This document shows, piece after piece, positions 23,619 to 27,529 of a DNA stretch of 64,000 nucleotides. Every line of letters begins with the position of its first letter. Position 1 is the stretch's first letter. A model generated the notes under the pieces. The model did no database searches, was not told the DNA's origin, and saw only the letters and a program-made list of their open reading frames with translations. A program made the position numbers and the translations under genes. The stretch is from Gemmatimonadota bacterium (GTDB lineage: Bacteria; Gemmatimonadota; Gemmatimonadetes; Longimicrobiales; Gaopeijiaceae). The stretch covers positions 1 through 64,000 of the forward strand of contig JAPPOV010000036.1 in assembly GCA_028873595.1 (NCBI GenBank), read 5' to 3'.

Positions 23619-26222
23619 TCAACCCTCACCATAGAAACTCCGGACCCGGTACTCCAGATCGGACCATGGCCCCTTGATGAGCGGGGCCGGTGGAAGGGAA
23701 TCTCGCAGGTAGCGGCCATATCGCTTCGCCACAATCCGATCGTCCAGAATCAATACAGCGCCGCGATCGGTTCGAGCCCGAATCAATCTCCCGAAGCCCT
23801 GCTTAAGGCGCAGGGCGGCATGAGGCAGCATGAAGCTCGAAAAAGGGTCCTGGCCCCTTCGCTCCAAGGCCTCCATTCGGGCTGCGGTAATCGGCTCGGT
23901 CGGGACCCGGAACGGCAACTTCTGAATCAGGAGGCCACGGAGCGGGTCACCGGGAACGTCCACACCCTCCCAGAATGACGACGTCCCGAGGAGAATCCCG
24001 CGCCCCGAATCGATGAACCGATCCAGAAGCCGGTGACGATCATCTTCGCCCTGAACGAAGAGCGGCCACGACGTATCGAGTCCACGATCGCGGGCCCCCT
24101 GTGCTACTCTGCGGAGTGCCGAGTACGAGGTAAACAGCGCGAAGAGGCCCCCATCGGTGATGTCTGCAAGGGTGCCCAGGACGTCCAGTGTCGCTTCACC
24201 GAAGCCAGAGTCTGCACCGCTCGCAGAGGGCAGATCCGTAGGGATTACGACGAGCGCCTGCTTCTCGAACTCGAAGGGCGACAGCACAATACGCTCATCT
24301 ACTTCAAGTTCTTTGTCGGACTCTGTCAACACTGCCGTATCGATACCGAGCCGCCCACGTAGAAAACCGAAGCTCCGGCGCGTCGTCAGGGTCGCTGATG
24401 TGAGGATCGTGGTTTCAGCCTGTGTGAAGAGCGACTCCCGCAGCACCCCGCCGAGCTCGATCGGAGCAGCTGCCAGAACCAGATTGGCGCTCCTCCCGGT
24501 CCCTCGAGACTCGAGCCACCGCACAAAAGCGCCAGCATCCTCGCCGGGTGCCAGCACCAGGCGGAGCCCCTGCACCGTCGCAGAGAGGCGGCGCTCGACG
24601 GAGCGCAGGTCCAGAAGTCGTCCCTCGAGCACGTCCATCCACTCCTCGACGAGTTCCAGACGAACTCGCAGCTCCCGTAACTCGCGTTCCAGCTGACCGA
24701 GCGTGCCGAGGACACCCTTGAGCTGCTCCGAGATATCCTGATCGGCTGCAGGCTCGAGCACTCCGCCTTCCCCGAGTCGGACAGGCCCCTCTCCCGGCGG
24801 TGCGAGTGGCTCCAGACGCTCGAGCAGCCCGTCGACCGCAGCCCGTCCTCGCGAAAGCGCCGGCCGGACCCGGTTCTCCACGCGTTCCCGGATCTCGTTC
24901 CCGTTTTCGCCTCCACCGACAGCATCGTGAATCGTGGTCAGAATGCCCCGGCCTCGCCGGTCCAGACGAGACATGGCTCGAGACAGCCCCCGCCGCGTGA
25001 TCTCGACACCCAGGTGGGATGTGGCCGCATCCTCAATGTTGTGAGCCTCGTCGAGGACGACCCGCTTGTATGCCGGGAGGACTGCCGCCTGAGTGTAGTT
25101 CCCGGTCGCTCGTCGCACGGCGAGGTCTGTGAACAGGAGATGGTGGTTCACGACCAGAAGCTCTGCCGATGCCGCCTTCCGTCGCGAGGTCTGGTAGAAG
25201 CATGCCTGGAAATGGGGACACCGTGCCCGGAGGCATATGTCCGGGTCGCTTCGGACCTCTTCCCACGTGTCACTCGACGGGCGAAACCCCAGATCCGACA
25301 GCGATCCGTCGTCGGTTGTATTGATCCATTCGAGCAATCCCCGGATTTCGTCGGATCGGTCCTCATCAAAGAGCGTCCCCTGACTCTCTGCGGCGAGTCG
25401 GGCTCGGCGAATCGAAACGTAGTTGCCGCGTCCCTTCACCAGAGCCCAGCGCACGTCTCCGAGGAGTTCCTGGACCAGCGGCAGGTCCTTTTCGGCCAGC
25501 TGCTCCTGGAGATTGATCGTATTGGTGGAGATCACGGTGCGCTCTGCGTTCTCCTGGGCCCACCGAACGGCTGGAAGCAGGTATGCCAGGGACTTTCCCG
25601 TCCCGGTCCCCGCCTCGATGATCGAAATCCCTCCTTCATTGAAGCGCTCGACAATCGCGTCCAGCATGTCTCGCTGTCCGGGGCGATCCTCATACGCCCT
25701 GTACCGCGACGCGAGCGCTCCCCCGGGCGCCAGCACCGCATCGAGATCCTCCGAACGCAGGAGAACACGTTCCTTCGGCGCAGGAGGCTCCACGACGACG
25801 TAAAGGTCGGTGGCCTCGTTGTCGATGATGGCCGTTCCGATCCCCTGGTCGTAGAGGAGGGCCGCGACCCGCATGTCAGCGTCCGAGGGTTCGAGGAGTC
25901 CGCTGGGATGGTTGTGAAGCATCACACTCCCCTCGTTGGCATCCCGCGCGGCGACCAGGACCGCCTCGAAGTTGCCACGGGCGACCGCGCGCGGCGCTCG
26001 GACCACACGATCCTCGTCAACATCGGCGAGGAAGCACACCTCCCTGCCACCCGCTCGTTCGATCTCGCCACGAAGTCGAGACGCAGCCTCCGGAGAGAGC
26101 GAGAGCGGGACGACCGAGGGCGGTCCGTGGTTTCCAACACCACCCGCCGTGACCTCGTCTGCCACGTCTTCTTGGAGCTCAAGACCGTCCAGACCGAAGA
26201 GCGCCCGTGCCGGGACGGTCAT
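23619..26222 (-). CDS. JAB/MPN domain fused to a DinG/XPD-family helicase
   Basis: 867 residues from the ATG at 26222, preceded by GAAGG; a TTG at 26252 overlapping the upstream stop (TTGA) is the alternative. Residues ~45-140 form a RadC/JAB-like domain with the full metal motif H103-x-H105-x7-S113-x2-D116 (HNHPSG...PSDAD). The rest is an XPD/DinG superfamily 2 helicase: Walker A EAGTGTGKS (Lys210), VLDEAHNIED (Asp391-His394), and a C-terminal helicase domain with GILLGTSSFWEGVDVPG. Three cysteines, 330, 335 and 341, have the x4/x5 spacing known for the DinG iron-sulfur site. The expected first cysteine in GRGNYxC is Ser270. Such enzymes unwind damaged DNA or RNA-DNA hybrids; the role of the JAB part is unknown. 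Confidence 0.9.
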   Translation of the reverse strand: MTVPARALFGLDGLELQEDVADEVTAGGVGNHGPPSVVPLSLSPEAASRLRGEIERAGGREVCFLADVDEDRVVRAPRAVARGNFEAVLVAARDANEGSVMLHNHPSGLLEPSDADMRVAALLYDQGIGTAIIDNEATDLYVVVEPPAPKERVLLRSEDLDAVLAPGGALASRYRAYEDRPGQRDMLDAIVERFNEGGISIIEAGTGTGKSLAYLLPAVRWAQENAERTVISTNTINLQEQLAEKDLPLVQELLGDVRWALVKGRGNYVSIRRARLAAESQGTLFDEDRSDEIRGLLEWINTTDDGSLSDLGFRPSSDTWEEVRSDPDICLRARCPHFQACFYQTSRRKAASAELLVVNHHLLFTDLAVRRATGNYTQAAVLPAYKRVVLDEAHNIEDAATSHLGVEITRRGLSRAMSRLDRRGRGILTTIHDAVGGGENGNEIRERVENRVRPALSRGRAAVDGLLERLEPLAPPGEGPVRLGEGGVLEPAADQDISEQLKGVLGTLGQLERELRELRVRLELVEEWMDVLEGRLLDLRSVERRLSATVQGLRLVLAPGEDAGAFVRWLESRGTGRSANLVLAAAPIELGGVLRESLFTQAETTILTSATLTTRRSFGFLRGRLGIDTAVLTESDKELEVDERIVLSPFEFEKQALVVIPTDLPSASGADSGFGEATLDVLGTLADITDGGLFALFTSYSALRRVAQGARDRGLDTSWPLFVQGEDDRHRLLDRFIDSGRGILLGTSSFWEGVDVPGDPLRGLLIQKLPFRVPTEPITAARMEALERRGQDPFSSFMLPHAALRLKQGFGRLIRARTDRGAVLILDDRIVAKRYGRYLRDSLPPAPLIKGPWSDLEYRVRSFYGEG

Positions 26223-26248
26223 GGGGAAGCCTTCGGGGATCTCCGAAC

Positions 26249-27529
26249 TCAAGTCTTGAGCTTCTGCTTCTTGGCGGCCGGAAAGAGGACGTTGTTCAAG
26301 ATCAGGCGGTACCCGGGCGAATTGGGGTGGAGCGCCAGATCCGTCTGCGGGTCACCGATCTGATGCTCCGCGTCCTCAGGGTCGTGCCCACCAAAGTACG
26401 TGAAGGTGCCCTCACCCAGGTTTCCGTGGACGTACTTCGCCCACCCCCCTTCCTGAGCGAGCACGATCGTGCCCGACTTCAGGCGATCCTGCCGGAACGA
26501 CGTGGTCAGCCCATAGAAATCCGGGATCACGGCTTCGTGGTTCTGGGTCAGCATGGACGCGACCGGATCGAACTTGGCGGAAAAATCGAAGAGGGTGTAC
26601 ACCCCCAATTCGTTGCGCCACGGCGTGTTGACCTGATGACCGTCTATGTCGGAAAACGCGTTCACCGACGGGGCGATCTGCACCTGTGCATCCGTGAACG
26701 CCATCGCCTGATCCCAGTCCATTCTGCTCGACGCGTTCGGGTCCGGCGGCGTTCCATCAGAATACGCCGCAGCGATGTCGGCATCGTGCGCGGCCAGAGC
26801 CAACTCGAGTGTCTCCGTCGCAGAGCACATTGCAAAGAGGAATCCGCCATCCTCGACATACTGACGGATGGTCGCGGCGACGTGCTTCTTCAGAGCGGGT
26901 ACGTCGGCAAAGCCCCCCTGGCGGGCGATCTCCTGATTACGCGCCACCTCCTCCTGGAGCCACGGCGCACCTGAGTAGGTCAGGAAGAACTTCGAGTACT
27001 GGCCGGTAAAGTCCTCGTGGTGCAGGTGGATCCACTCGTATTCGCTCAGGTCTCCGTCGAGTACGTCTCCGTCCCAGATCTTGTTGTACTCGATCCCCGC
27101 ATACTCCAGGGCCATGGTGACGGCATCGTCCCACGGTGTCGAATTCGGCGGCGTGTAGACCGCAACCTGCGGCGCGGATTCGAGAGGGACAGCCTCCATA
27201 TTCGAGGTCGCGACCGTCGCTCGCATCCGCGCCTCGGCCGATGCATCCATAGGCTCGACGCTTACCCCCCGAAAGGCAGCCTCACGTCGGATGTCGTCCC
27301 GGTCAGGCAGGAGGAATGAACCACCGCGGTAGTTGAGCAGCCATTCGGCCTTCTCCTGCTGCTCGAGCGTCCAGTACGTCAGCCCATACGCTTTCAGGTG
27401 GTCCTGTTGCGAGCGGTCCATGGGGACGAGCAACCACTGTGCCGTCGCGTCCACCGGGGCGACCACCAGAGCCAGAACGAACAAGGCCGCATGAAGGGCC
27501 CGGGTCTTCAGAGCCTCACCCGTCATCAT
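26249..27529 (-). CDS. Secreted 'asparagine synthetase B-like' protein of unknown function
   Basis: 426 residues with a signal peptide over roughly residues 1-31, cleaved near DATAQW. The mature start QWLLVPMDRSQQDHLKAYGL, followed by YWTLEQQEKAEWLLNYRGGSF, matches a conserved family in Bacteroidetes and Gemmatimonadota. Databases usually misname it 'asparagine synthetase B'; it has neither the glutaminase nor the PP-loop domain of true AsnB. Later blocks include EWIHLHHEDFTGQYSKFF, DGGFLFAMCSATETLELAL and FTYFGGHDPED, which suggest a GATase/ThuA-like sandwich fold. Its ATG overlaps the TPR stop by four bases, and it lies in the DUF4159/DUF4175 cassette. I would treat it as an envelope protein of unknown role. 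Confidence 0.85.
   Translation of the reverse strand: MMTGEALKTRALHAALFVLALVVAPVDATAQWLLVPMDRSQQDHLKAYGLTYWTLEQQEKAEWLLNYRGGSFLLPDRDDIRREAAFRGVSVEPMDASAEARMRATVATSNMEAVPLESAPQVAVYTPPNSTPWDDAVTMALEYAGIEYNKIWDGDVLDGDLSEYEWIHLHHEDFTGQYSKFFLTYSGAPWLQEEVARNQEIARQGGFADVPALKKHVAATIRQYVEDGGFLFAMCSATETLELALAAHDADIAAAYSDGTPPDPNASSRMDWDQAMAFTDAQVQIAPSVNAFSDIDGHQVNTPWRNELGVYTLFDFSAKFDPVASMLTQNHEAVIPDFYGLTTSFRQDRLKSGTIVLAQEGGWAKYVHGNLGEGTFTYFGGHDPEDAEHQIGDPQTDLALHPNSPGYRLILNNVLFPAAKKQKLKT

Follow-up and report, generated by a model that had tools for sequence, protein, structure and literature searches.

We asked what is made, and what it might do, at a locus where a domain resembling RadC precedes a DinG-type helicase in the genome of a Gemmatimonadota bacterium. 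The locus lies in a stretch of 64,000 nt (contig JAPPOV010000036.1; hereafter, the window). In our reading, which we hold at a probability of roughly 70%, the gene encodes a chromosomal, single-copy RadC-like DinG, i.e., an XPD/DinG-type helicase carrying an N-terminal, metal-dependent JAB hydrolase of the RadC type.

Gene structure and domain composition

The gene corresponds to an open reading frame (ORF) of 877 aa on the minus strand (23619–26252). The original prediction had placed it at 23619–26222; the end at 23619 was retained, but position 26222 proved to be an internal ATG. A TTG at 26252 is the likelier start, as it overlaps the stop codon of the upstream gene (TTGA) and as the residues between the two candidate starts (PEGFP) look like those of a relative, L035. 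The sequence joins a RadC-type JAB domain and a DNA-repair-type helicase in one frame, and the predicted chain begins with a tail (residues 1–46; 26115–26252) that is predicted to be disordered, with pLDDT <50 in the full-length model. The RadC-like JAB/MPN domain (about residues 50–165; 25758–26105) and the DinG/YoaA-type helicase (residues 186–877; 23622–25697) follow.

The H-x-H-x7-S-x2-D pattern that had drawn attention to the N-terminal domain was found to be exact at residues 113–126 (HNHPSGLLEPSDAD; 25875–25916). These include His113, His115, Ser123 and Asp126, which, with the putative JAMM catalytic glutamate Glu71 (26040–26042; invariant in alignments A2 and A3), make up a complete metal and catalytic set as judged from the sequence. 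By itself, the pattern was rejected as proof of a JAB domain: chance alone would give 0.42 matches in the stop-free segments of the window, at least one was present in 107 of 300 shuffles of these segments, and the window holds a second, unrelated match. Among shuffles of the 877-aa protein, 12 of 20,000 contained the pattern.

The motif alone being weak, the N-terminal JAB domain was confirmed by Pfam, profile and fold comparisons, sequence- and model-based as they are, together with the conservation of its site. Pfam RadC matched residues 70–134 of the whole protein with 23.0 bits (cut-off 22.1) and the N-terminal domain taken alone with 27.8 bits; all 62 members of alignment A2 matched it as well (E 0.01 or better). 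When the profile of A2 was compared with the PDB, it recovered RadC 2qlc (E 1.2e-8), the alignment running through HNHPSG...PS.AD. The JAB fold, whose absence was to count against the original prediction, was predicted confidently by AlphaFold2 from A2 (pLDDT 92.9, pTM 0.80). Foldseek with this model returned RadC 2qlc in the top five rows, followed by homologues of CSN5, BubCD and Rpn11, and VIA-align gave Z-scores of 10.4 for BubCD, 10.2 for Rpn11 and 8.7 for RadC 2qlc, with the JAMM/MPN structures Rpn11, CSN5, PfJAMM1 and BubCD spanning 8.6–10.4. The TM-score of 2qlc was low (0.42–0.51) though its Foldseek E-value was the best; it ranked 34th in the Z list, with a Z within 2 of the top. In the model, Glu71 immediately precedes the first long strand, the central strand ends with His113 and His115, and Asp126 lies near the start of a helix, a layout that is also described in PMC11981726.

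The assignment of the remainder to a DinG/XPD helicase held as well. Pfam detected DEAD, DEAD_2 and Helicase_C_2 (E 7.8e-45), the last of these being the second motor domain (23688–24173). The best NCBIfam models were YoaA (525 bits, cut-off 680) and DinG PRK08074 (461 bits, cut-off 789), and TIGR01407 covered the helicase part only (residues 187–861). None of the Pfam and NCBIfam models for an N-terminal exonuclease (DEDD) matched the 877-aa protein. The full-length model (pLDDT 88.9, pTM 0.87) found its best solved match for the helicase in E. coli DinG with single-stranded DNA (6fwr). The ATP-site and DEAH motifs of both motor domains appear intact in the sequence, including the Walker A motif EAGTGTGKS (residues 213–221; 25590–25616), whose columns are invariant in alignment A3, and the DEAH box (residues 401–404; 25041–25052), also read from A3. 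When the own genome was searched for proteins with PF13307 (Helicase_C_2, DinG/XPD-type), only this one was found. The same genome holds partial matches to the RadC family on contig 29 (82745–82921) and contig 48 (5–100), perhaps one ordinary radC gene split by contig ends.

Distribution, decay and gene neighbourhood

The pairing of the two domains had been thought uncommon. Genome and literature searches did not support this, as the pair turned out to be common and described already: a probe made of the N-terminal domain matched 233 of the 298 genomes of the phylum (E 0.001 or better), the pair was present in several other phyla, and PMC11981726 names a subgroup for it. The helicase part was searched in 30 chosen genomes, namely 20 of the 65 genomes without an N-domain match and 10 genomes with one. 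It was found in seven of the 20 (two cut by a contig end), with none in the other 13, and in nine of the 10. A scan of wider genome contigs yielded at least 306 relatives; the best 80 were kept, and their taxon counts are no census. Within these 80, 79 continued into the helicase, some being cut by contig ends; the C-terminal helicase part of L143 is in another frame, and L166 stops at a contig end. By record label, the 80 comprised 56 Gemmatimonadota-type bacteria, 13 spirochaetes, six Geobacter-type bacteria and one each of 'Deltaproteobacteria', Nitrospirae, Hydrogenedentota, 'Planctomycetota' and 'Vicinamibacteraceae'. Judged by these sequences, the domain pairing is kept across several bacterial phyla. 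In phage and plasmid records, coverage of the 877-aa protein stayed below 80% throughout, and there is thus no sign of a mobile-element family.

The metal site was conserved along with the pairing. Glu71, His113, His115, Ser123 and Asp126 were all present in 79 of the best 80 of at least 306 relatives, from Gemmatimonadota, Geobacter-type bacteria, spirochaetes, Nitrospirae and Hydrogenedentota. The one exception (L145) has a gap at the glutamate, and the other four residues were kept in all 80. We also assembled a phylum set of the window and 85 rows, L003, L004, L090 and L091 having been dropped beforehand as duplicates. Here, the five-residue site was complete in 74 of the 84 rows uncut by contig ends. 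The 10 rows without an intact site all retain the helicase, and most or all of their site residues are gone together. In four of them (L035, L077, L081 and L084), 111–125 of the 125 N-domain positions align and the site is mostly or wholly gone; the frame upstream of the L077 helicase reads unlike a JAB domain. In the other six (L074, L075, L078, L086, L087 and L088), the N-terminal domain is little or not recognisable. A second alignment gives other letters at the site in rows without a real domain, which are to be read as 'not intact' only.

Domains that had lost the site also diverged faster. Given helicase identity, N-domain likeness was reduced to a mean z of −3.52 in L035, −3.57 in L081 and −4.59 in L084, relative to a fit to 1128 intact pairs that are not independent of each other. 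Such faster change with the scaffold kept is expected if selection keeps a catalytic function. On a FastTree phylogeny of 138 rows, at least six changes between the intact and not-intact states were counted, and seven were counted in an earlier 154-row analysis that included the contig-cut row L083. Repeated decay or loss with the helicase retained shows that the helicase can persist without the N-terminal domain; from these sequences, the domain looks useful but dispensable. Both states occur within one genus (L015 intact, L035 decayed). Fusobacterium vincentii encodes a DinG (L092:2842–5310) with a RadC-like N-terminal region that has neither metal histidine and looks, by its sequence, like a dead version. 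Its record, of 2.1 Mb, is labelled a plasmid and looks like a chromosome. Intact, decayed and lost N-terminal domains form a ready natural comparison series, down to one genus.

The five nearest genes in the window encode an FAA hydrolase, an aminotransferase, a TPR protein and two proteins without a Pfam match. Directly upstream, with a 4-base overlap, lies the gene for a 426-aa protein (26249–27529, minus strand) that had no match in Pfam or NCBIfam. We compared neighbours in 43 of 81 loci, using ORFs of at least 120 aa, which excludes small proteins. Twelve of the 43 loci, all Gemmatimonadota, have a relative of the 426-aa protein upstream. Among the 22 largest neighbour clusters there was no partner gene conserved across phyla, which fits a self-contained enzyme; only two small clusters, an ABC ATPase and a LexA-like repressor, crossed phyla, and within this comparison nothing pointed to a ubiquitin-like system. 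The LexA-like gene (L126:11234–11888 and others), whose product we take from reading its sequence to be such a repressor, is located downstream, at up to about 5.5 kb, in three of the 43 loci, two from Gemmatimonadota and one of Geobacter type. An SOS link via this neighbour is possible and may be chance.

Serine in the iron-sulfur segment

Alignment with E. coli DinG placed the iron-sulfur segment at 25200–25415. Cys340, Cys345 and Cys351 align with ligands, and the place of the first ligand is taken by Ser280 (25413–25415). In the phylum set, the Ser-Cys-Cys-Cys arrangement was present in all 44 rows from the window's order that could be read, the window itself among them, whereas all 40 rows of other families had four cysteines. 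The wider set, drawn from the best 80 of at least 306 relatives, had 26 rows with serine (window included), 54 with cysteine and two that were unreadable (L118 and L166); the 26 are all the rows of the window's lineage, each with Ser-Cys-Cys-Cys. As the two sets overlap, these counts are not to be summed. The serine codons are all TCN (TCG in the window, TCN in 25 others). Among the serine rows, a search for columns with cysteine in >30% revealed no new cysteine that would compensate; besides Cys340, Cys345 and Cys351, only column 73, in the JAB domain, passed, and it is often cysteine in the four-cysteine group too.

Two Cys-to-Ser changes were counted on the 138-row FastTree phylogeny, two on the 154-row tree and one on a quick IQ-TREE tree of 74 rows (branch SH-aLRT 93). 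A single origin, as against two, is therefore likely from these trees, not certain. A genome labelled Longimicrobium (L120) belongs to the serine group. Two records labelled Planctomycetota and Vicinamibacteraceae (L096 and L114) carry the serine of the window's lineage and show high identity to the window gene; they are probably misnamed bins.

With serine in place of the first cysteine, the cluster and the usual helicase mechanism are not assured. In related helicases, such a change at an iron-sulfur ligand has been made in the laboratory, and the lineage-wide Ser280 is its natural counterpart. PMC11981726 notes DinG-like proteins in which a single cysteine is replaced by H, S or D (for instance CCHC and CCCS), and also counts three cysteines as able to serve an iron-sulfur domain. 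Ser280 is a new instance of this kind of change, here fixed across one lineage.

Function and relation to known systems

DinG and YoaA are driven by ATP in the 5'-3' direction on single-stranded DNA. By analogy, the motor of the RadC-like DinG would move along single-stranded DNA in this direction at replication sites that have stalled or been damaged. The JAB domain would bind one zinc, and a zinc-activated water in its site would cut something that the motor exposes or delivers. The tether to a motor of known type means that whatever the domain acts on must be close to single-stranded DNA, which makes the substrate of such a RadC-type JAB domain testable.

We lean slightly towards nucleic acid over protein as this substrate. 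The original prediction had suggested that one protein might process DNA as well as a protein or DNA adduct, a role that stays conjectural. A nuclease or nucleotide-processing role, in which the domain would trim the strand unwound by the helicase as the N-terminal exonuclease does in ExoDinG, is a tentative view that we put somewhat below even odds. To our knowledge there is no one-metal JAB nuclease, which counts against it, and among solved structures most matches to the predicted fold are (iso)peptidases or MPN proteins without activity. A DALI search reported in PMC11981726 likewise gave no nuclease similarity, but the same source shows exonuclease or endonuclease domains of other DinG subgroups in the N-terminal slot that the JAB domain occupies here, and an argument in PMC5512222 and a passage of Iyer et al. 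favour nucleic acid. Fold and site residues are the reasons to consider instead a peptidase that, as the helicase pulls on the strand, would cleave a repair partner or proteins crosslinked to or stalled on DNA: the closest folds of known activity are the JAMM (iso)peptidases BubCD, Rpn11, CSN5 and PfJAMM1, and the Glu/His/His/Ser/Asp set is complete. We consider this rather unlikely, given that RadC-type JAB domains are said in PMC5512222 to be unlikely to have a groove for the ubiquitin tail and that none of the neighbour clusters shared among the 43 loci (ORFs of at least 120 aa) is conspicuous as a ubiquitin-like protein. Repair of DNA–protein crosslinks by one chain, in which a helicase walking on single-stranded DNA would feed protein to a RadC-type JAB metalloprotease, in one Gemmatimonadota lineage with a three-Cys/one-Ser cluster, is doubtful; if true, it would give the RadC-type domain a biochemical role. 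What nucleic acid and protein leave of the probability goes to other amide or amidine bonds or to no catalysis.

A structural or regulatory domain that binds DNA or a partner without catalysis would agree with the repeated decay of the domain beside a persisting helicase and with the histidine-less region retained in F. vincentii. It is improbable in view of the five site residues being kept together wherever the domain is intact and of the faster change in domains that lost them. A CRISPR type IV (CasDinG) helicase was considered too, since the helicase part is hit by typeIV_DinG models of PADLOC (E 8.7e-131). This identity was rejected, its probability being negligible: the NCBIfam Csf4 model scored 106 bits (cut-off 400), three of four cysteines are present here whereas the iron-sulfur region of CasDinG is vestigial (PMC10450177), the five nearest genes are those given above, and the gene for the N-terminal domain is in most genomes of the phylum.

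A RadC-like DinG remains our preferred identification. The pairing of RadC and DinG has been described before and is a known but unstudied protein type: fusions of RadC to DinG/RAD3-like helicases are cited in PMC5512222 (2017), and a review (Cheng 2025; PMC11981726) names and models the subgroup 'RadC-like DinG', with Desulfuromonas soudanensis as type model, lists its JAB residues as Glu, His, His and Asp, finds metalloproteases as the nearest folds of the RadC-like domain and states that 'no research has been conducted' on it. From Attaiech 2008, the review reports that E. coli radC mutants are normal in DNA-damage sensitivity. Its main text, Table S1 aside, does not contain 'Gemmatimonad', 'Geobacter' or 'Treponema', and a literature search for Gemmatimonad, DinG and RadC gave matches that, by title, were on other subjects. 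Added here are the intact site in most lineages, the several decays or losses of the N-terminal domain with the helicase staying, the dead-looking F. vincentii version and the serine for the first iron-sulfur cysteine across the window's lineage.

The protein shares with the RadC-like DinG subgroup an N-terminal JAB domain of RadC-like type that has the Glu, His, His and Asp residues, a YoaA-like helicase that has an arch domain and a putative iron-sulfur domain, and a C-terminal helix, predicted here at residues 863–876; it differs, with its lineage, in Ser280. It resembles E. coli YoaA and DinG in the helicase part, by bit score and fold, but falls under both NCBIfam cut-offs and has the JAB domain in addition. 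RadC itself (UPF0758) has the same fold and the HNHPSG...PS..D motif, with about 21–22% identity between 2qlc and the N-terminal domain; at 21.8 bits against an NCBIfam equivalog cut-off of 180, however, the window protein is not a RadC protein. Like the ExoDinG proteins (DinG of S. aureus and B. subtilis), it has an extra domain of catalytic type N-terminal to a DinG helicase, here a predicted JAB fold and not a DEDD exonuclease. With the JAMM/MPN+ metalloproteases, it has in common the JAB fold, the glutamate and H-x-H-x7-S-x2-D.
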